Shown here one piece after another: positions 1-64,000 of a DNA stretch of 64,000 nt (positions within the stretch are counted from its first letter, which is position 1; the number at the start of each line of letters is the position of its first letter). Made by a program: the position numbers and the translations under genes. The stretch comes from Neglectibacter timonensis (lineage in GTDB: Bacteria; Bacillota; Clostridia; Oscillospirales; Acutalibacteraceae): contig NZ_LT160637.1 in the NCBI RefSeq assembly GCF_900048895.1, positions 1 to 64,000 on the forward strand. Reading direction: 5' to 3'. The notes below the pieces were generated by a model, which did no database searches, was not told where the DNA came from, and was given only the letters and a program-made list of their open reading frames with translations.

Positions 1-47
1 GGCTTCTTTTCCACGCGAGTTGAAGTTATCTATATTCTCCTGCGCGC
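1..47 (-). repeat. S-layer gene leader repeat (gene lies left of window)
   Basis: These bases are the reverse complement of the conserved 5' leader found upstream of the three S-layer genes that start at 25482, 32136 and 60260. The match runs to the GCGCGC at about 42-47 and then stops abruptly; the flank beyond it is unrelated to the other three. The coding region would lie to the left of base 1 on the minus strand, so only the distal leader is visible. Confidence 0.85.
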
Positions 48-25363: not shown

Positions 25364-25555
25364 TTCTCTGGAACAAAGGAAGGAAGCGAAGAAGGAGATA
25401 GCGCGCAGGAGAATATAGATAACTTCAACTCGCGTGGAAAAGAAGCCAAGCGAGAATCTAAAATTTAAGAGGGTTGAAATTATGAAGAAAAGCAAGTTTC
25501 TGAAGAAATCACTTGCGACGCTCCTTGCACTCATGCTCGTCGTCGCAATGATTCC
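25364..25555 (+). repeat. 192-bp S-layer inverted repeat, left arm
   Basis: As far as I could compare by eye, this segment (leader plus the first 25 codons) is identical to the reverse complement of 32063-32254. It also shares its inner part, from GCGCGC at about 25411 onward, with 60179 onward and with 1-47. The two arms bracket the convergent genes at 25482 and 32136. Confidence 0.92.
25424..25481 (+). promoter_or_regulatory. S-layer mRNA leader with sequestered Shine-Dalgarno
   Basis: TTCAACTC (25424-25431) can pair with GGGTTGAA (25471-25478), which overlaps the Shine-Dalgarno AGAGGG. Inside, CTCGC...TGG pairs with CCA...GCGAG (25429-25454). The segment 25455-25481 is also complementary to the 3' UTR at about 28599-28626. 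The same sequences recur in the other S-layer leaders. A TATAGAT at about 25415-25421 is the only -10-like box, and I see no matching -35. Confidence 0.6.
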
Positions 25556-28500
25556 GATGAGCGCTTCTGCTGTTGCTGCTGGCGATGGGGTCATCAGTAT
25601 CGAGGCGGAAACCGGAACTTTGACAGGGTCCGGAACCACCTTTACAGATACGGTGCCGTGGGCTGCAGCTGACCAGAAGGAAGCCAAGCTCACAATAGTG
25701 CCGGATGCCTCAAAGGGCTTTGATCAGATTGTGTGGAACACAACGGCTGATCCTGACACTATCACGACGGAGGACGCTACAAACGATGTCGTAGAGCTTA
25801 AAAATTTGACGGAAGACATTGAGTTCTATGCTACAAAAAAAGCTGATGCTACCGTCAAAAGTCCTGTTTATGAAGTAAAGGTCGTCCTGACGCCCGCCAG
25901 CAACGACACCTCCATTAAAGAGGTGAAGATCGGTGAAGTGAAGGGTGTTGTGGACAATACAAAAAAAACCATTACCTTTGATTCACTTCCCTGGAACGTG
26001 ACTGGAACTCCAACTGTCACTGTTACAATGAACAACCCCGGCACTATTGATGCTGCTGTTTCTCTGACAATGACAGATGGAGAGGGATCCGGCACCGTAA
26101 AGGTTACCGCGCAGACAGGCTCCACCGATACTTACACCGTTAAGGCCAAGCATTCCGAGGGCCTGACCGCCCTGGCCATCGGCGGCGTGGCTGCTGTTAA
26201 GGGAGAAGACGGCAAGTATACGGTTTCTTTGCCAGTCGGTACGGATACTGCAGAGCCTCTGGCCGTTGAGTTTTCCTGCGGCACAAAGCTTACTAAAGCA
26301 GTTCTTAACAGCGTAGAAGTCGAAAGCGGAAAGTCTTATGACCTTTCAGCGATGATCGACCAAGAGAAAGATTTTGTCCTGACCGATGAATCAACAGGCA
26401 CAAAAACTTACAAAGTAAAAGTCGAAGTTACAAAGAGCGACGACACCACGATTTCCGCATTTACGGCAACTGCAAACGGCTTTACCGAGAGCGGTGTCAT
26501 TGACGGAAAAAACCTGACGGTAGAACTTCCCTATGGCAAAAATATTGCCGATTCTGTTGCGCTTGCTTTTACCGTGCCGACAGGCGCTGTGGCTTCTGTT
26601 ATCGGTGAATCAAACCTTAACACTGTAAATCTTACAAAACCCGTTACGGTGAAGGTTGTGGCTGCGGACGGTAAGACCATTGCTTACTACACGCTGACCG
26701 CGACCGTAGCGAAGGATCCCAACAAAGATCCCAAAATCAACTCCGCAAAAGTGACCGTCAATGAAGTGGAGTATACGGCCGTACCGAATGACAAGAACGA
26801 GATCATCTTTACTGTGCCCTATTCCACGAAGGACGCGGACGTTACCGGCATAGCAAAGTATGTCTTCTCCAAGACCGCCCGCACCAAGCTGGACGCTAGC
26901 GCTCTTGACAGTATCACAGTCCCCACTTCCAAGGAGATCACTGTCGAATCAGAAGCCGGCGATAAAGTTACCTATACGGTTTCCTTCGTAAAGGCGAAAG
27001 CTGAGACAGGAAAAGAGCTGAGTAAGTTCACCTTTACTTCCGCTGCAAAGGAAGAGGACGTCACTTCCAGCAATACCTATCCTGTTGCGCTGGATGCCAC
27101 AAAGAAGACCGCCACTGTTACGTTACCTTATTCCTATAAGACTGCCGATGGCTCAATTTCCCTCGTTCCCCAGTTTACCCTTTCCAAGGGTGCTAAGCTG
27201 TATCAGAACGATACAACAAATGTTGGCACAGCTCTTGTAAGCGGATTTGACAGTGCTACACCCATCACACTTGCTGTGCTGAAAGGTAGTGTAAAGCTGA
27301 TTGTCGCGGATGAGACCGCCGCATTTGCCATTGATAATGCAGCGTCCACTGCAATTACAGGCCTTGATGAAAACAATACCGTGGTTTACGACGTGAAGGT
27401 CGACTATGCTGCGCCCGCCGAAGGCCACACACTCAACAGCTTCTCTGTGAAAAATGGTATCACCAGCAAGATCAGCGGTAATGCCATTACCATAACCATT
27501 CCGTATACAGAATCAATTGCTCCTCAGATTGGTCATGCATTTTATGCAGACTACAGTGTTTCTGATCGTGCCGTTGTAACCGCTGAGGGTAAAAAGCTTC
27601 CCGCCACATACGATAATACGCCCAATGAAGGCCGTCTATGGTACTGGAATTCAACTACCAGCGGAGCAAGTGATTTAAGGCTTGAAGTTAGTGATAGTGC
27701 TGGTGCATGGACCGAAGTAGAGTCCATTGTCGTAACAAACGAAGCTGGAACAGCATCCACCAACTACAAAGTGACTGTTGAGGTCGCCCCGGCGGAAACC
27801 GGCGCTGCTATTACAGCTGCAAAGGTGGGGGTTGTTAACGGCACCATCAGCGGCAAGAACATCAGCGCGACGTTGCCCTTCGGCACAGACCTCACTGAGG
27901 TTGCACTGAACATCACGGCGTCCAAGATGGCCAAGGTAGAAATCGGTGCTGACGTATATGATCCCGCTGATACCGAAGCTGTTTATGACCTGACCGACCC
28001 TGTGACCATCACAGTCACCTCGGAGGATAAAAACACCGTCAACGTCTACACGCTGACCGCCAAGGTTGCTGCACAGTTCAGCGACGTGAAGGAAGGCGCC
28101 TGGTACTATGACTATGTGACCGAGGCCGCAGCAGCCGGAATCATCAACGGCAAGGGCAACGGGATCTTTGATCCGGAAGGCAACATCACCCGCGGTGACT
28201 TCGCACTGATGACCGTACGGATGCTGGGCGTCGATGTAAGCGGCTATACCACCGCTCCGTTCTCCGATGTGAAGGCCAGCGATTATTACATGAAGGCTAT
28301 TGCCTACTGTGCTGAGAAGGGAATCATCGGCGGCACGGGAGACGGCAAATTTGAGCCTGAAAAGAACATCCTCCGCGAGGAGGCCGCTAAGATCATCGCC
28401 ATTGCCCTGAACCTCGATGGCACCACAACCGAGAAGTTCAAGGACGACGCGAAGATCAGCAACTGGGCGAAGGGATATGTAGATGCCTGCAAGGCTGCCG

Positions 28501-28598
28501 GAATCTTTGGCGGCGACGAGAAGGGCAACTTCAACCCGAAGAGCCCCATCACCAGAGCCGAGACCGCTAAGATCATGGTCGTGGCAATGGGCAAATAA
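25482..28598 (+). CDS. S-layer (SLH-domain) surface protein A
   Basis: The 1038-residue secreted protein has a signal peptide of about 30 residues (cleavage after SASA). A long Thr/Val/Lys-rich region (about 31-860) is built of repeated beta-sandwich modules with the phrase TVxLPYGT...DLTxPVTxxVTSED...VYTLTxxV, resembling cadherin-like/DUF5018-type folds. Three C-terminal SLH domains follow (about 865-1038; FSDVKEGAWYYDYVTEAAAA, then ITRGDFALMTVRML). SLH domains bind pyruvylated secondary cell-wall polymer. The start is ATG 25482, 9 bp after AGAGGG. The 5' end is identical to genes B and C, the 3' 560 bp are nearly identical to gene C, and the middle is divergent. Confidence 0.88.
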   Translation: MKKSKFLKKSLATLLALMLVVAMIPMSASAVAAGDGVISIEAETGTLTGSGTTFTDTVPWAAADQKEAKLTIVPDASKGFDQIVWNTTADPDTITTEDATNDVVELKNLTEDIEFYATKKADATVKSPVYEVKVVLTPASNDTSIKEVKIGEVKGVVDNTKKTITFDSLPWNVTGTPTVTVTMNNPGTIDAAVSLTMTDGEGSGTVKVTAQTGSTDTYTVKAKHSEGLTALAIGGVAAVKGEDGKYTVSLPVGTDTAEPLAVEFSCGTKLTKAVLNSVEVESGKSYDLSAMIDQEKDFVLTDESTGTKTYKVKVEVTKSDDTTISAFTATANGFTESGVIDGKNLTVELPYGKNIADSVALAFTVPTGAVASVIGESNLNTVNLTKPVTVKVVAADGKTIAYYTLTATVAKDPNKDPKINSAKVTVNEVEYTAVPNDKNEIIFTVPYSTKDADVTGIAKYVFSKTARTKLDASALDSITVPTSKEITVESEAGDKVTYTVSFVKAKAETGKELSKFTFTSAAKEEDVTSSNTYPVALDATKKTATVTLPYSYKTADGSISLVPQFTLSKGAKLYQNDTTNVGTALVSGFDSATPITLAVLKGSVKLIVADETAAFAIDNAASTAITGLDENNTVVYDVKVDYAAPAEGHTLNSFSVKNGITSKISGNAITITIPYTESIAPQIGHAFYADYSVSDRAVVTAEGKKLPATYDNTPNEGRLWYWNSTTSGASDLRLEVSDSAGAWTEVESIVVTNEAGTASTNYKVTVEVAPAETGAAITAAKVGVVNGTISGKNISATLPFGTDLTEVALNITASKMAKVEIGADVYDPADTEAVYDLTDPVTITVTSEDKNTVNVYTLTAKVAAQFSDVKEGAWYYDYVTEAAAAGIINGKGNGIFDPEGNITRGDFALMTVRMLGVDVSGYTTAPFSDVKASDYYMKAIAYCAEKGIIGGTGDGKFEPEKNILREEAAKIIAIALNLDGTTTEKFKDDAKISNWAKGYVDACKAAGIFGGDEKGNFNPKSPITRAETAKIMVVAMGK

Positions 28599-28633
28599 GG
28601 TTTCAACTCACCTAAATTTTATGATTACCCCAT
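28593..28633 (+). repeat. 41-bp inverted repeat at the 3' end of S-layer gene A
   Basis: It is a perfect inverted match to 28901-28941 and includes the stop codon and TTTCAACTCACCTAAATTTT. It resembles the reverse complement of the gene's own leader (25455-25481). Confidence 0.92.
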
Positions 28634-28641
28634 GGGCGGGA

Positions 28642-28668
28642 GGGACGGAGCAATCCGTCCCTTTCGTC
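28642..28668 (+). terminator. Terminator of S-layer gene A
   Basis: GGGACGGA, loop GCAA, TCCGTCCC (28642-28661), followed by TTTCGTCTTT. Confidence 0.85.
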
Positions 28669-28865
28669 TTTGGGGTAATTTTATATTATTTAAGAGGAAT
28701 GAAATACCTTGTTCTATGCCCTTTTCCGTTTATTCGGGCAGCCCTTCCATAGAATAAGATGTAGTTTTCTAGCAGTCTCATTGCGCATTGTTTCCCATCC
28801 CGGTTCTCACAGCAACCGTGAAACCTGCACTCAACCGAAGTTTTTCCATAACGGAAAGCAAAATA

Positions 28866-28893
28866 GAACAAGGGGGCGGATTTCTCCGCCCCC
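28866..28893 (-). terminator. Terminator of S-layer gene B
   Basis: On the minus strand GGGGGCGGA, loop GAAA, TCCGCCCCC (28893-28872), followed by TTGTTCT. The 200 bp between the two terminators contain a TTCTATG/CATAGAA inverted repeat but no gene. Confidence 0.85.
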
Positions 28894-28900
28894 TCGCTCT

Positions 28901-28941
28901 ATGGGGTAATCATAAAATTTAGGTGAGTTGAAACCTTATTT
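28901..28941 (-). repeat. 41-bp inverted repeat at the 3' end of S-layer gene B
   Basis: Reverse complement of 28593-28633; see that entry. It spans the stop codon of gene B. Confidence 0.92.
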
Positions 28942-31900
28942 ATTCATGGAGATAACCATGACTTTCGCTGTCTCAGCTCTCGTAATCGGATTGCCGGGCA
29001 GGAAGTTCCCGTTGTCTCCACCGAAGATACCAGCTTCTTTGCAGGCGTAGACATATCCCTTCGCCCAGTTCTGGATCTTCGCATCGTCCTTGAAGGTCTC
29101 GGTCGGATTCTTTACTTCGCTCAGACCAAGCGCAACACAGACGATCTTAGCAGCTTCTTCTCTGCTGATGTTGGCGTCAGGACGGAAGGTTCCATCCTCA
29201 TAGCCGCCGATGATCTTCTTGTCATAGCAGTAGGCGATCGCACCCAGCGCATAATCGTTATCGTTCACATCCTTAAACGGGGATGTGGTATAGCTGGAGG
29301 TATCGGCATTCAGCATACGGGCTGTCATCAGAGCAAAGTCACGACGGGTTACATTTCCTTCTGGATCAAAGATCCCGTTGCCCTTGCCGTTGACAATTCC
29401 TGCTGCTGCTGCCTGCATCACGTAGTCGTAATACCAGGCGCCTTCCTTCACGTCTGTGAACTGGGCGGAAACAGTAGCCTTCAATGTATATACATTGGTG
29501 GTCTTGGTATCTTCGGAAGTAACCTTGATGGTCAGGTTGTTATTCAGGTCGTAGTTCGCATCGGCATCATACTCATCGGTGCCAACGATAACAGTCGCCA
29601 TCTTGGATGCGGTGATGTCCAGCTTTAAGGGGTTGAGCTTAGTCCCATAAGGCAGGGTCACATTGATGGTCTTGCCGCTGATTGTGGCATTATATTTGCC
29701 CACTTTCAGCGCAGTGATGGAAGCGCCAGCTTCGGGATCGGCGACAACCAGTTTCACCGTGTAAGGGGTGGAAGCCTTGCCGTCTTCCGCGTATACTGTG
29801 ATCTTGCCTTCCTTATCAGCGCCGCTAGTAATTGCAACATCACCGGTTGCAACAGCCAGCTGACCATCCTTGGCAGTAAACTTGGTAGCGTCTGTGGTCT
29901 CTTCGCTGCCCATATCGGACTTCAGCTCAGTTGTCTTCGCAGTCCCAACATAAACCTCCGCCATTTTGGACTTGGAGAAGTTGAGGGTAAAGGTCTGTAT
30001 AGCGTCCGCTTTTGCATAGCTGTTAGGAACAGTCACGGTAATGGTCTTGCCGGAAATAGAAGCTGTGACGTTCTTATCCACATCAGACTTAATGCCTGTG
30101 ATGGCAGCGCCAGATTCAGGCTTTGCATTCACGCCGTACAGATAATACTGAGTGGCAACAGCCTGAAGAGCTGATTCATCTGCAAAGGTTGCACCCACTG
30201 CGTTCTTTTCGCTGACCACATAGATGCTCAGTGCGTTGGTTGTCGTCAGCTTATTCGTGGTGGAATTGAAGGCGTCTGTGGGAACCGCGATCGGTGTCGC
30301 TGCCTGGTCACCAGCCGCATCCATATCCAGCTTTACGATCTTTGTCGGAGTTGCGAGATATGCAACCGCTCCGTCGCTCAAGGTCAGGTTGGAGAAATAG
30401 GTTGCGGTGTCGTTCGCAAAGGTATAGGGCACATCGACCTTCAGGGTCTTAACGGTTTTGTCAGCAGTATCTTTGGCGGTGCCAACGGTTACCTTATAGG
30501 TGTTGTCGGCGGTAATGGAGCTGACCTTTTTGGTGCCTACCAGAGTGGCAGAAGAAACGGTCTTTCCGGTCTTTGCTGTTTCAGCTTTCAGGACTACGGT
30601 ATAGGTAACCACCGTGCCATCCTGAGCTGTTACCTTGTATTCTGCGGCTGTACCGAACGCCGGCTTCGAAGACAAATCGGAATATTTTGTGGAACCATTT
30701 GTGATCGTTTCACTCAAGGAAGCGCCTGTGCTCACAGTGGCATAAACCAGGAAATTGTCGAGAACAGCTGTATCTGTCAGCGCATAGGGAAGGGTGATGA
30801 CGCCCTTGGTCCCGGTCCAATCAGCGCTGTAGGATACGTTTTCGCCGTTGAGCTTGCCCTTCAGGGCGAAGTCCTTCAGCTGTGCCTCGTCGGCAGCTGC
30901 GGCGGTCAGGTTAATGGTATAATCTGTGGTAGTCTTTTCGTCCTCAGACACAACGCGAATCACGAAGGTCTTGCCGACGACAGATACATTTTTCAGTACT
31001 CCGTCCGCAACGTTAATGCCCTGTGCAGGAATAGTTACAGTCGCATTCTTAGAAGCCTCGAACGTAACAGTTTCCTTGCCATCGAACTTGTATCCCTTGG
31101 GCATTTCGACGGTAACAGTCGTTCCAGTAACTTCTACGGTGTTGCTTTTACCGACCTGGATGCTCTTCAGGGCGGCTTCCGTATTAGCGCTCTCTTCCGT
31201 CAGAGTAACTTTCACTGTAACTCCTGTTGTCTTATTTGTCTTGGTAAAGACCTTGAAATCGACAGCTTCGTCCTTTTTAAAGGAAAGCGCAGTCACGCCG
31301 CTCTTCACTTCGATCTCTTCCGTGTTTACTACGGTAGTAACCTTGGTAACAGTTTCACCCACAGTAAAGGTGGGGATGATCTTCTGAGGCCAATCTGTTC
31401 CAAAGGGCATCTTAATTGCAACAGTGTTTGTTGCCTCGGCTTCGGAAATTGTGGTATCCCCTACCTGATTCGGGACAGTAAAGGAAGCAAAACCGGTTTC
31501 GTTCTTCAGTTCTACGTCGTACTTCTTGACAGAGCCGTCCTGCGCTGTGACTGTCAGAACATTGGCAGCGAAGTCAACAGACGCATCGTCAGAGGTGGGA
31601 ATGAACTTTTCCTTTGTGGTAGTTCCCAGATCGGTGGGAAACGTTTCGCCGAAAGGCATGTAAACGGTAATCTTCGTATCGGAGATATCGTAGGAAGCCA
31701 TGCCGTCGATGCTGACGCTCTTGATGGTGGCGTCACTGCTCTGAGCTGCGGTTTCCACCGTAATGTTCAAGGTGTAATCCTTGTCTGTGGTAGCGTCGTC
31801 GCCATCCTGTGTCACTTTAGCACGCAGGCCCAGCGTATAGACGTCGCCGTTTTTCTTGGCTTTTTCGGTCAGCTTAATGCTGTCTGCCAATGCGACCTCA

Positions 31901-32136
31901 TTCTGATCCTTGTCCACGGCAACCAGCGTTACGCCATCCTGGGGTACTGTTGTCACGGTAACTTCAGTGCTCTTGGCAGTTACCGTATACACGGTGCCGC
32001 TGAGTGTCGCCAGCTGATTGTCTACATATACTGTAGGATCATCCGCCGCCGCAGCACCGACAGGAATCATTGCGACGACGAGCATGAGTGCAAGGAGCGT
32101 CGCAAGTGATTTCTTCAGAAACTTGCTTTTCTTCAT
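28936..32136 (-). CDS. S-layer (SLH-domain) surface protein B
   Basis: The 1066-residue protein has the same architecture as gene A. The signal peptide is identical through IP (residue 25), then VGAAAADDP. Divergent beta-sandwich repeats follow (about 32-885; for example YNATISGKTINVTLPYGTKL near the end), then three SLH domains (about 892-1066) that differ from A and C: QFTDVKEGAWYYDYVMQ at the start and GNPITRAETAKVMVISMNK at the end. It converges on gene A across 337 bp. The start is ATG 32136, with the same leader and Shine-Dalgarno as gene A. Confidence 0.88.
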   Translation of the reverse strand: MKKSKFLKKSLATLLALMLVVAMIPVGAAAADDPTVYVDNQLATLSGTVYTVTAKSTEVTVTTVPQDGVTLVAVDKDQNEVALADSIKLTEKAKKNGDVYTLGLRAKVTQDGDDATTDKDYTLNITVETAAQSSDATIKSVSIDGMASYDISDTKITVYMPFGETFPTDLGTTTKEKFIPTSDDASVDFAANVLTVTAQDGSVKKYDVELKNETGFASFTVPNQVGDTTISEAEATNTVAIKMPFGTDWPQKIIPTFTVGETVTKVTTVVNTEEIEVKSGVTALSFKKDEAVDFKVFTKTNKTTGVTVKVTLTEESANTEAALKSIQVGKSNTVEVTGTTVTVEMPKGYKFDGKETVTFEASKNATVTIPAQGINVADGVLKNVSVVGKTFVIRVVSEDEKTTTDYTINLTAAAADEAQLKDFALKGKLNGENVSYSADWTGTKGVITLPYALTDTAVLDNFLVYATVSTGASLSETITNGSTKYSDLSSKPAFGTAAEYKVTAQDGTVVTYTVVLKAETAKTGKTVSSATLVGTKKVSSITADNTYKVTVGTAKDTADKTVKTLKVDVPYTFANDTATYFSNLTLSDGAVAYLATPTKIVKLDMDAAGDQAATPIAVPTDAFNSTTNKLTTTNALSIYVVSEKNAVGATFADESALQAVATQYYLYGVNAKPESGAAITGIKSDVDKNVTASISGKTITVTVPNSYAKADAIQTFTLNFSKSKMAEVYVGTAKTTELKSDMGSEETTDATKFTAKDGQLAVATGDVAITSGADKEGKITVYAEDGKASTPYTVKLVVADPEAGASITALKVGKYNATISGKTINVTLPYGTKLNPLKLDITASKMATVIVGTDEYDADANYDLNNNLTIKVTSEDTKTTNVYTLKATVSAQFTDVKEGAWYYDYVMQAAAAGIVNGKGNGIFDPEGNVTRRDFALMTARMLNADTSSYTTSPFKDVNDNDYALGAIAYCYDKKIIGGYEDGTFRPDANISREEAAKIVCVALGLSEVKNPTETFKDDAKIQNWAKGYVYACKEAGIFGGDNGNFLPGNPITRAETAKVMVISMNK

Positions 32137-32254
32137 AATTTCAACCCTCTTAAATTTTAGATTCTCGCTTGGCTTCTTTTCCACGCGAGTTGAAGTTATC
32201 TATATTCTCCTGCGCGCTATCTCCTTCTTCGCTTCCTTCCTTTGTTCCAGAGAA
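32063..32254 (-). repeat. 192-bp S-layer inverted repeat, right arm
   Basis: Reverse-complement partner of 25364-25555, including the leader, start codon and first 25 codons of gene B. Outside base 32254 the sequence is unrelated to the left flank. Confidence 0.92.
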
Positions 32255-60178: not shown

Positions 60179-60332
60179 GCGCGCAGGAGAATATAGATAA
60201 CTTCAACTCGCGTGGAAAAGAAGCCAAGCGAGAATCTAAAATTTAAGAGGGTTGAAATTATGAAGAAAAGCAAGTTTCTGAAGAAATCACTTGCGACGCT
60301 CCTTGCACTCATGCTCGTCGTCGCAATGATTC
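60179..60332 (+). repeat. S-layer leader repeat of gene C
   Basis: From GCGCGC onward it matches, as far as I could compare by eye, the leader and signal-peptide start of genes A and B, including the sequestered Shine-Dalgarno. The A/B repeat extends 47 bp further upstream; here the homology stops at GCGCGC. With gene B the match continues a little past the signal peptide Pro codon. Confidence 0.9.
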
Positions 60333-63300
60333 CTGTCGGTGCTGCGGCTGTCACGGTTGGGGATGGTACCATCGTCAGCCTGGAGGCAGATGCCGGGGAA
60401 GTGACAGGATCCGGTAAAGCGTATACCGACACGCTGCCTTATACAGCGGAGCCAGACGGGGATGGGTATTCGGACGTTATCGTAGTCGCTTTGGATGCCC
60501 GCAGTGGTTATGACGCCGTTGTCTCCACCGTGGACGGCGAGGAGTTTGTCCTCGCGGAAGATGGCCCGTCAGGCAGTGATCTCTATGGGATTTACGTTGC
60601 CGCAGACACCACGGTCACCTTCTACGCCGTGAAGGCTGATACCTTCAATGGGGCGGATCTGGAAGGCGCGACAAAGAGCGCGGCCTATACCGTAAAGGTC
60701 GTTTCCACCCCCGCCAGCAACGACACTTCCGTGAAGGAAGCGAAAATCGGTGAAATCGAAGGTGTTGTGGACAACACAGCAAAGACCATCACTTTTGTGC
60801 TGCCCTGGAGTGCTACTAGTGAGCAGACTGCTAACGTGGTCATGAACGCGGTTGTCCTGAACCCGGAGACTGGCGAAGAAATTCCTGTTACAGTTAACAA
60901 TATCACCGTTGGCGAAGACAAAACCTTCTCGGCTGTCGCCCAGAGCGGCGCGAGCCAGGTGTACACCATCATCACCTCCTATACCGAGGGCCTGAAGACG
61001 CTGTCCATCGGCGGCGTGGCCGCGGTGCTGGGTACAGATGAGGATGATCCAGATACCTACGAAAAATATGTAGTTACCCTGCCCGCAGGCACCGACCTGG
61101 ACGAAGAGCTTCCCCTGGTGTTCACCACCGGAACAGCGATTTCCAAAGCAGTGTTGGGTGACCTCGGCGAAGTGAAGAGCAGCGACTCCTATACCTTTAC
61201 TAAGGACAAAGAGTATAAGATGGCCCTGACCAACAAGGCTGGAGTAGATCAGCCCGACAGTGAGCAGGCTGAGATCGTGGTAAAGGTTGCCGACAGCAGC
61301 GACACCAAGATCACCGCAGCTGAAGGCGCTGCCGATGGCTACACCGAGACCGGCGTGATCGACGGCAAAAACATTTCCATTGTCATGCCCAAGGGCACCG
61401 ATCTGAAGGATGTAGATGTCACCCTGACTGCCGCTGCCGACTCCACCATCACTGTGGTAGGCATCGATGGTGGAAGCTTTGAGCCTCAGGCAGACCCGAC
61501 CAAGTACATCGGCGACGAAAACTGCGATTTCAGCAAGCCCCTGCAGCTGAAGGTAACCGCTGCCGACGAAACGACGGTGGATTATTACACTCTGAACGTA
61601 ACGGTTGCGGGCGTGGTCAATCAAGACCCTGCCATCACCTCCGCAAAGGTCACCTTTGATGACGACCAGGAAAGTACTGCTTCCATCAAGGATAAGACCA
61701 TTACCTTTACGGTTCCCTATTCCACTCCTGCTGACATTAGTGCAGCAAACCCCGAGTTTACCTGTGCAAAGACTCCTGCAACCAAGGTGGAATCGACTAT
61801 CGCTTGGGACAGCTTGTTCGAAGGAACCCACAGCGTCACGGCAACCTCCGATGCCGGAGACAAGGTGACCTATACGGTCGTCTTTAAGAAGGCCAAGGCC
61901 GAAACAGGCAAGACCCTGAGCAGCCTGTCTGTCACCACAGCGGAGACCGTCAAGGATGTTACAGCTGAGAACACCTATAAGGCTACCATCAGCGGGACTA
62001 AAATTACAGGCACGCTTCCCTACGCGGTATACAGCAATGACGATCAGGAGCTAGTTGCACAGTTCGAGCTTCCCAAGGGTGCAAAGTTCTACAACACCGA
62101 TGAAGCTGGCGATGCAGGCAATATCTTCAACGAGCTAGAAAGCGGTTTTAATGAAGAAACAGAAACCCCCAAAGATAACGCAATCATCGTAGTAGGAGCT
62201 CTGAAGGATGACGCGGATGAAAAAAATCCCTACTATTATGTGGTAGCTGACGAGACTGCCGCAGTTCTAATCGACGAAGCATTAAAAAAAGGCGATGTTG
62301 GGGTTGATGACCTGAAGGCAGCACCCTACAAAGGCCATGTGACCCTGTACACTCTCACCGTGAAGTCTGAAGAAGCCAGCAAAGAGGCTCTTCTGAAGAC
62401 CTTTACCGATGAGAAAAAGAACATCACCTCTTCTGTTTCCGCCACAGCTCTCAAGCTGACTGTACCGGCTTCCTATGATGATGGAAATGCTTTCAAGGTA
62501 ATCTACACCGCTTCTACTGGAGCAACGGTCAAGGCTCTGTATACCGACGGCGAAGTAGAACTTACCGAAGACACCGAGTTTAAGATTATCGACGGTGCAC
62601 TTAATGTTGTTTCGGAAGGTAACAAGCCGGTTACCAAAATTAAGGTAGAGAGCGAAGCTCGGGTTGATAGCGCTCCTTATGCTACTACCCAATACACCGT
62701 TTCCGTAACCGTAAGCGATCCGGAGACAGGCGCACTGATCACCGCCCTGAAGGCAAACAAGACCGCTGCCACAATCAGCGGCAAGAATATCAATGTGACC
62801 ATGCCCTTCGGCACTGATCTCAGCAAGGTTACCATGGATTACACTGCTTCCAAGATGGCAACTGTGGAAATCGATCCGGAAGCCACCGAGGAAGACGAAG
62901 TTGAGTACTACGACCTGACAGATGGCGCAAAGATCACAGTTACTTCTGAAGATGAAGACACCGTCAACGTCTACACGCTGACCGCCAAGGTTGCTGACCA
63001 GTTCAGCGACGTGAAGGAAGGCGCCTGGTACTATGACTATGTGACCGAGGCCGCAGCAGCCGGAATCATCAACGGCAAGGGCAACGGGATCTTTGATCCG
63101 GAAGGCAACATCACCCGCGGTGACTTCGCACTGATGACTGTACGGATGCTGGGCGTCGATGTAAGCGGCTATACCACCGCTCCGTTCTCCGATGTGAAGG
63201 CCAGCGATTATTACATGAAGGCTATTGCCTACTGTGCTGAGAAGGGAATCATCGGCGGCACGGGAGACGGCAAATTTGAGCCTGAAAAGAACATCCTCCG

Positions 63301-63523: not shown

Positions 63524-63558
63524 GGTTTCAACTCACCTAAATTTTATGATTACCCCAT
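63518..63558 (+). repeat. 41-bp inverted repeat, 3' end of gene C
   Basis: Same sequence as 28593-28633 and inverted at 63826-63866. Confidence 0.9.
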
Positions 63559-63825: not shown

Positions 63826-63866
63826 ATGGGGTAATCATAAAATTTAGGTGAGTTGAAACCTTATTT
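63826..63866 (-). repeat. 41-bp inverted repeat, 3' end of gene E
   Basis: Inverted partner of 63518-63558, spanning the gene E stop codon. Confidence 0.9.
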
Positions 63867-64000
63867 ATTCATGGAGATAACCATGACTTTCGCTGTCTCA
63901 GCTCTCGTAATCGGATTGCCGGGCAGGAAGTTCCCGTTGTCTCCACCGAAGATACCAGCTTCTTTGCAGGCGTAGACATATCCCTTCGCCCAGTTGCTGA
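63861..64000 (-). CDS. S-layer (SLH-domain) protein E, C-terminal end only
   Basis: The reverse strand encodes the last 45 or so residues of an SLH protein (...NWAKGYVYACKEAGIFGGDN..., ending in VMVISMNK), matching gene B. At the window edge it reads ISNWAKGY, as in A and C, instead of IQNWAKGY as in B, so it is a mosaic. It is convergent to gene C exactly as B is to A. The rest lies beyond base 64000. Confidence 0.85.
   Translation of the reverse strand, partial: SNWAKGYVYACKEAGIFGGDNGNFLPGNPITRAETAKVMVISMNK

Follow-up and report, generated by a model that had tools for sequence, protein, structure and literature searches.

The 64,000-nucleotide stretch analysed here (the window) is positions 1-64000 of contig C11 (NZ_LT160637.1) in the 3.67-Mb, 14-contig genome assembly of Neglectibacter timonensis (G000). 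It carries S-layer genes that probably belong to a recombinase-driven, multi-cassette switch of six genes (A-F) with one main promoter, a reading to which we give a probability of roughly 0.78 from comparison of sequences. In the proposed mechanism, the six genes would share a leader made up of a common 34-bp segment, a 5' untranslated region (5'UTR) hairpin, a Shine-Dalgarno (SD) region and a signal peptide, and a single strong promoter would lie at the leader end near 67.3 kb of C11. A 472-aa tyrosine recombinase would invert the DNA between opposed leaders, crossing over in the 34-bp segment before the start codon. Inversion of one pair of genes would swap its two members. If the inverted segment instead ran between the promoter end and a leader of opposite orientation, 7 kb away for C, about 42 kb away for A or within pair 3, a different intact gene would come to stand behind the promoter, and by successive inversions any of the six genes could reach this position.

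Six S-layer genes share a leader in three convergent pairs

The comparison set comprised 29 genomes of the genus of Acutalibacter and Neglectibacter, G000 included, and 31 others. Leader matches were found in 26 of the 29 (weakly in G004) and in 1 of the 31, again weakly; an invariant 28-mer of the leader occurred in 51 stretches of the genus, and the viral contigs searched gave 0 matches. In G000 the leader matched nine places. Two of them, C11:67141 and C11:67385, represent a single leader that appears twice, on either side of one N, within an exact duplication of 227 nt; a true double leader was ruled out there as an assembly duplication, and the join error at G000:C11:67.2-67.6 kb (L009:9157-9611) makes one leader seem two.

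Six leader-led S-layer genes, that is, several surface-protein genes with a common 5' end, form three convergent pairs. C11 carries two of them, A/B and C/D; the third (pair 3) consists of E (running from contig C3 into C2) and F (on C2). Besides A and B, the window holds the third gene and the tail of the fourth (Table 1). Three S-layer homology (SLH) stretches each (PF00395) and, by eye, a signal peptide mark A and B as SLH-type S-layer proteins. The leaders of A and B are identical as reverse complements over 192 of 192 bases, with little identity just outside, and their 3' ends carry an inverted repeat identical at 41 of 41 bases; judged by length, both repeats go far beyond chance in 64 kb. 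In a repeat search, the outer repeat stretched to 207 nt at 97%, and the 3' ends of A and B showed weaker inverted similarity (71-81% over 441, 90 and 159 nt), which overlaps the common SLH region. An earlier sequence-only reading of the window had described the 192-bp outer repeat, the perfect 41-bp 3' repeat and the two convergent S-layer genes with a common leader, and all three descriptions hold.

Two leader types coexist, AAGCGAG (A, B, C and F) and GCGTGAG (D and E). Identity within one type runs over 109-192 bases, the lower values being cut by contig ends; between types it covers 35 bases and then more past a short variable stretch. Between pairs, the 3' blocks show 81-86% similarity across about 1-1.7 kb, with 86% over 1.7 kb for pairs 1 and 2. 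E and F lack upstream ends, and only two of the nine matches are leader ends with no gene attached, one at the left end of C11 (window base 1) and one at the left end of C9; the simplest placement of pair 3 is therefore between these two contigs. In the relative G012, the antiporter gene that neighbours the C11 left end and the genes of the C9 flank lie on one contig and flank a leader pair, which agrees with the order C9 - pair 3 - C11, but the recombinase of G012 is on the antiporter side and not on the C9-flank side.

One leader end carries a promoter motif

The motif TTGCTT-17-TATTAT lies directly upstream of the shared segment at the end of D (C11 ~67.3 kb, beyond the window). It is not present at the ends of A, B, C, C11-left and C9-left; one of the six upstream ends read carries it. 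Picked by eye among the matches listed of 84 leader places, the motif marks an end in 17 genomes (16 by script, G027 by eye), one end each. It was counted twice in G000 only through the duplication artefact, and no other genome has two. A generic sigma-70 score was 8 at the end of D, 6-7 at the other G000 ends and 10 at motif-less ends of G009 and G022, and because it fails to separate the two classes, the promoter class rests on the shared motif.

Since pair 1 has no motif-bearing end, A and B are probably silent in the assembled state, and inverting pair A/B alone should change no expression. The sequence-only reading had proposed inversion at shared leaders like that of sap or slp, by which the pair at 25.3-32.3 kb would exchange the flanks that its two proteins face. 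The kind of mechanism is well supported, whereas the unit has to be redrawn as six genes in three pairs: neither end of the A/B pair has the promoter motif, and exchange with the C11 ~67.3 kb end would be required.

The promoter locus is syntenic across species, and the S-layer gene behind the promoter differs. Genes outside the promoter end had matches within about 2 kb of the promoter end in all six relatives whose promoter-end locus was part of the search (G005, G007, G019, G022, G025 and G028); two genes of the outer flank were found in 6/6 and a third in 5/6 (partly in G005). These flank genes were at none of the other loci among the 24 searched in nine genomes. For 11 promoter-linked proteins, the best cross-species match was a non-promoter gene in eight cases, a promoter-linked gene in two (G026 and G027) and a gene of unassigned state in one (G008). 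On a 51-row tree with many partial rows and some long branches, the promoter-linked label changed 11 times; the shuffle mean was 10.1, and 500 of 500 shuffles were as low. One of 52 rows was left out of the tree, G005:C3_257118 (171 aa), whose first 81 post-signal residues copy another leader gene. At this place (G005:C3:257118, L060) the leader and 81 residues are 100% as in another S-layer gene there and are followed by a different short frame, either a truncated copy or an assembly join. Two more unusual leaders were noted: an upstream half-leader before a frame without an S-layer-like start (G022:C1:36426-36495, L045:16426-16495) and a leader without the shared upstream box (G018:C53:4578, L033).

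Contig ends point to a putative 34-bp crossover interval

E starts with exactly 127 nt common to D, and F with 127 common to B. The piece on the promoter side covers 35+92=127 nt of the shared leader before it ends, and the overlap of C3 and C2 is 117, which equals 2x127-137, the E/D identity run being 137 nt. These four measurements fit a de Bruijn assembly, from which we infer both the kind of assembler and k=127. Under this k, a contig that enters a leader from unique DNA was expected to extend 127 nt beyond the boundary; measured from the variant base, C11 should reach +79 and C9 +93. In the assembly, both contigs break off at +0, where the AAGCGAG and GCGTGAG leaders first diverge. Of the last 127-mer, 79 (C11) and 93 (C9) bases are unique, with at most 48 and 34 nt shared within the window and L009-L013; in the same sequences, the terminal 50 nt of C11 and the terminal 35 nt of C9 each have a single occurrence.

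Because these ends are unique yet stop at the variant base, they call for reads that join each flank to both leader types. Each flank would then continue into both types, an apparent trace of both arrangements in the culture. Such a fork would be expected from two orientations of pair 3 or from other exchanges at these ends. The promoter-side piece ends at 35, not 34, shared bases, which suggests that an end of the A/B/C/C11 kind, and not C9 alone, is also joined to GCGTGAG. Judged from the contig ends, the crossover would fall between the flank boundary and the variant base, an interval of 34 bp (TATAGATAACTTCAACTCGCGTGGAAAAGAAGCC).

A linked tyrosine recombinase

A 472-aa tyrosine recombinase is encoded at C9:140-1555 (minus strand), with its stop 102 bp from the leader box at the C9 end. 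It matches PF00589 (E 9.3e-26) and PF14659, and its catalytic residues, read by eye, fit R-K-HxxR-H-Y, the catalytic motif of tyrosine recombinases. Against XerC/XerD and related models, it gave only matches far below the cut-offs. In G000 a next frame outward from it resembles rimO by eye. The genome-wide recombinase search proposed in the sequence-only reading gave 17 PF00589 and 8 PF00239 matches. That reading had seen no recombinase in the window and had turned to RecA or a distant enzyme; the likely enzyme is indeed outside the window, but it is linked to a leader end.

Of the 29 genus genomes, 18 have an ortholog at >=56% identity; the 31 others have none. In 15 of these 18, a leader box lies 78-349 bp past the recombinase stop on the same strand. 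The ortholog was carried by 16/18 genomes with at least two leader matches vs 2/11 with fewer than two (Fisher p=0.00025, on raw match counts with G000 set to six by us and kinship ignored). At >=90% completeness, the figures were 14/15 vs 1/5 (p=0.005). In the whole genus set, six of the eight genomes with a single leader match were without the recombinase.

Leader hairpin and 3' element

The 5'UTR opens with a hairpin whose arms vary between species yet pair, with a loop of 4-8 nt (by eye). Much longer hairpin inserts in G001 and G027 fold as extended stems. GAGAATCTAAAATTTAAGAGGGTTGAAA is invariant in 18 aligned leaders, one per genome; two other leaders of G022 have one T fewer, and those of G027 have one more. 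The minimum-energy fold differs in the G000 AAGCGAG leader, G007 and G021, where the 5' end pairs with the SD region. The hairpin resembles a tyrosine-recombinase core, and its candidacy as the recombinase core site was dropped on the long extended stems of G001 and G027; selection on an mRNA 5' stem is the better reading. A folded, attC-like site built from the CTTCAAC/GTTGAAA boxes was also dropped, the left box being TTCCAC in 12 of the 18 aligned leaders.

Among 21 genes of relatives that could be read to a stop codon, 20 have the 3' element after it; the exception is G027:C3, and two more genes are cut short. It is conserved at 28599-28633, at 63524-63558 and in relatives, and it is complementary to the ribosome-binding region of the leader, where its possible pairing partner is the invariant GAGAATCTAAAATTTAAGAGGGTTGAAA. 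The predicted pairing of element and leader is -19.0 to -23.5 kcal/mol, and in each of eight rows 0 of 500 mononucleotide shuffles were as low. Our reading of the 41-bp repeat is a 3'UTR element that could pair with the leader, and its role as a second invertible segment was dropped on its position after the stop and this pairing.

An extended form of the proposal, for which we would give somewhat less than even odds, is a genus-wide S-layer archive. In this archive, nested inversions by the tyrosine recombinase would swap intact genes lying tens of kilobases apart; the 34-bp site of these inversions would share sequence with the left half of the hairpin, itself variable but paired, and the conserved 3'UTR element could pair with the ribosome-binding region of the leader.

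Table 1 Features of the S-layer locus in the window
Feature	Positions	Strand	Remarks
Leader end at the left edge of C11, pointing out of the window, most simply toward pair 3 (C2, C3)	1..47	-	Stops at the first base differing between leader types
Leader repeat of gene A: promoter-motif-less upstream end, 5'UTR hairpin, SD region, start codon, signal peptide codons	25364..25555	+	192/192 vs reverse complement of 32063-32254
34-bp segment common to the six upstream ends read, putative crossover interval (TATAGATAACTTCAACTCGCGTGGAAAAGAAGCC)	25414..25447	+	Left identities of 34-35; contig ends
S-layer gene A, 1038 aa, three C-terminal SLH stretches	25482..28598	+	PF00395; probably silent in the assembled state
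41-bp 3' element of gene A, covering its final codons and part of the 3'UTR	28593..28633	+	41/41 identity
41-bp 3' element of gene B, inverted copy	28901..28941	-	41/41 identity
S-layer gene B, 1066 aa, three SLH stretches	28936..32136	-	PF00395; probably silent in the assembled state
Leader repeat of gene B, content as in gene A	32063..32254	-	Same 192/192 identity
Same 34-bp segment, gene B	32171..32204	-	Left identities; contig ends
Leader of gene C, left end of pair 2, 155 nt identical	60179..60333	+	Genome leader matches
S-layer gene C, 1087 aa	60260..63523	+	
3' end of S-layer gene D (1117 aa)	63861..64000	-	D continues to about C11:67214, outside the window; behind the promoter-type end

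Alternative explanations

The same inversions might run through RecA, by homologous recombination between long identical leaders, with the recombinase incidental. The leaders would be equally usable by RecA, given 109-192 identical bases within a type and 35, then more, between types; the 3' blocks of the pairs add 81-86% likeness over about 1-1.7 kb, and homologous crossovers within the 34 bp would likewise fork at the variant base. We nevertheless regard this account as unlikely, because the recombinase neighbours a leader in 15 of 18 genomes and tends to occur where leaders are multiple. It is quite improbable that the genes form a static family whose leaders are kept alike by gene conversion or recent duplication. 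Such a family would agree with the 86% likeness over 1.7 kb of 3' sequence in pairs 1 and 2, which points to duplication or conversion, and with the assembly of pair 1 in one orientation. Two contig ends stopping at the variant base, however, argue for switching, as do two leader types persisting side by side and promoter-linked proteins that belong to different subfamilies in different species at a fixed promoter locus. A reading of the leader as an integration site for a mobile element, with the recombinase as that element's integrase, is hardly credible: PF00589 and PF14659 are integrase domains, but recombinase and leader are neighbours with matching orientation in 15 of the 18 genomes that carry the ortholog, all from a single genus, and one of the next frames outward in G000 looks rimO-like by eye.

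Several observations weigh against recombinase-driven switching behind one promoter. The fork is read from contig ends of one isolate; trimmed contigs could mimic one such stop, though less easily both at that base, and no contig-end signal comes from pair 1, whose repeat (192) is longer than k. The motif was picked by eye, and given the unseparated sigma-70 scores, motif-less ends may be active too. No motif end was found in nine genus genomes with leader matches (G002, G004, G006, G010, G014, G015, G018, G023 and G024), in several of which some ends have no readable upstream sequence. The promoter-end leader of G019 (C6:187750, L079; a metagenome bin) lacks the right arm of the hairpin. The ortholog cut-off was chosen by us, and weaker recombinase matches (33-53%, some only half-length) occur in G011, G018 and G026 and, outside the genus, in G029, G044, G047 and G049; such matches are also extra copies in G006 and G022. 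Linkage fails in G012, where the recombinase has no leader <=700 bp downstream and sits beyond the antiporter gene, and in G005, where there is also none <=700 bp downstream and the nearest leader, C3:306208, is ~590 bp from the start end of the gene; in G024 the contig ends 81 bp past the recombinase. Finally, no ortholog was found in G025 (85% complete), despite its three leaders, or in G004, whose two leader matches are weak, and G006 and G024 have one leader each, yet carry the ortholog.

Comparison with known systems

Mycoplasmas are the best-known setting for recombinase-driven exchange of whole surface genes behind one promoter; for S-layer switching, Campylobacter and Lactobacillus are the familiar examples. 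In its logic, the closest analogue appears to be vpma/Xer1 of Mycoplasma agalactiae, alongside Mycoplasma bovis vsp and Mycoplasma pulmonis vsa/HvsR, and the present system would work like vpma. As described in PMC2268961, vpma combines a single promoter with several surface-protein genes, its putative recombination sites fall between -72 and the start codon, a tyrosine recombinase gene adjoins the locus, and switching is lost when xer1 is disrupted. The likeness lies in the several surface genes and the linked tyrosine recombinase and, as proposed here, would extend to the one promoter and to sites ahead of the start codon. However, vpma is a 9.6-kb lipoprotein locus of a mycoplasma, whereas SLH S-layer genes of a clostridial gut genus are arranged here in three convergent pairs over >67 kb; the vpma recombinase adjoins its locus, and ours would be about 75 kb from the promoter if pair 3 sits between C9 and C11.

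In the sap locus of Campylobacter fetus, the promoter lies inside an invertible segment between divergent genes, and RecA takes part; inversion of sap without RecA has also reportedly been described, according to a title. By the title of Dworkin and Blaser (1996), sap is said to combine S-layer genes, a single promoter and inversion. The present locus shares the several S-layer genes and, in the proposed reading, the single promoter and the inversion, but its genes are convergent, the motif is at an outer end instead of inside a segment between divergent genes, the surroundings of the promoter end are syntenic, and there is a linked tyrosine recombinase. In Lactobacillus acidophilus, a dominant and a silent S-layer gene, slpA and slpB, are exchanged by chromosomal inversion (PMC7858073); that system exchanges two genes, and here there are six. 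Another clostridial surface protein, CwpV of Clostridioides difficile, is under phase-variable DNA inversion (PMC2784873). Here whole genes would be exchanged, unlike cwpV, which toggles one. The cwpV switch is of the on/off kind.

Loci resembling a cwpV-type switch seem to be present in G000 too, which has a large repertoire of SLH proteins (110 SLH domain matches). At three of six recombinase loci examined, a short inverted repeat lies near an SLH frame. One of them, G000:C9:94826-95589 (L066:826-1589), is a perfect 24-nt inverted repeat with arms 145 nt apart and looks like a classic invertible promoter; it has a tyrosine recombinase gene on one side and, on the other, an SLH frame whose SLH stretches begin at C9:95815. 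The others are inverted repeats of 18 and 21 nt (94-95%) beside tyrosine recombinase genes, a few kilobases from SLH frames, at C9:36.1-36.9 kb (L064:6131-6883) and C14:1355.2-1356.0 kb (L068:10179-10986).

Among the open-access PubMed Central (PMC) papers that our searches listed, no title or opening of an abstract seemed to describe a system of the kind proposed here. In open-access PMC, Acutalibacter, S-layer and inversion never occur together, nor do Neglecta timonensis and S-layer; six texts combine Acutalibacter and S-layer and mention the genus once each. What would be added is a dedicated, genus-conserved version in SLH-type gut Clostridia. The analysis also suggests that exact short-read contig ends may serve as an indicator of inversion that can be checked in existing reads. 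If the proposal is true, common gut commensals could replace a main coat protein, with likely effects on phage infection, immune recognition and strain tracking, and evasion of phages and immunity may be what such switching serves.

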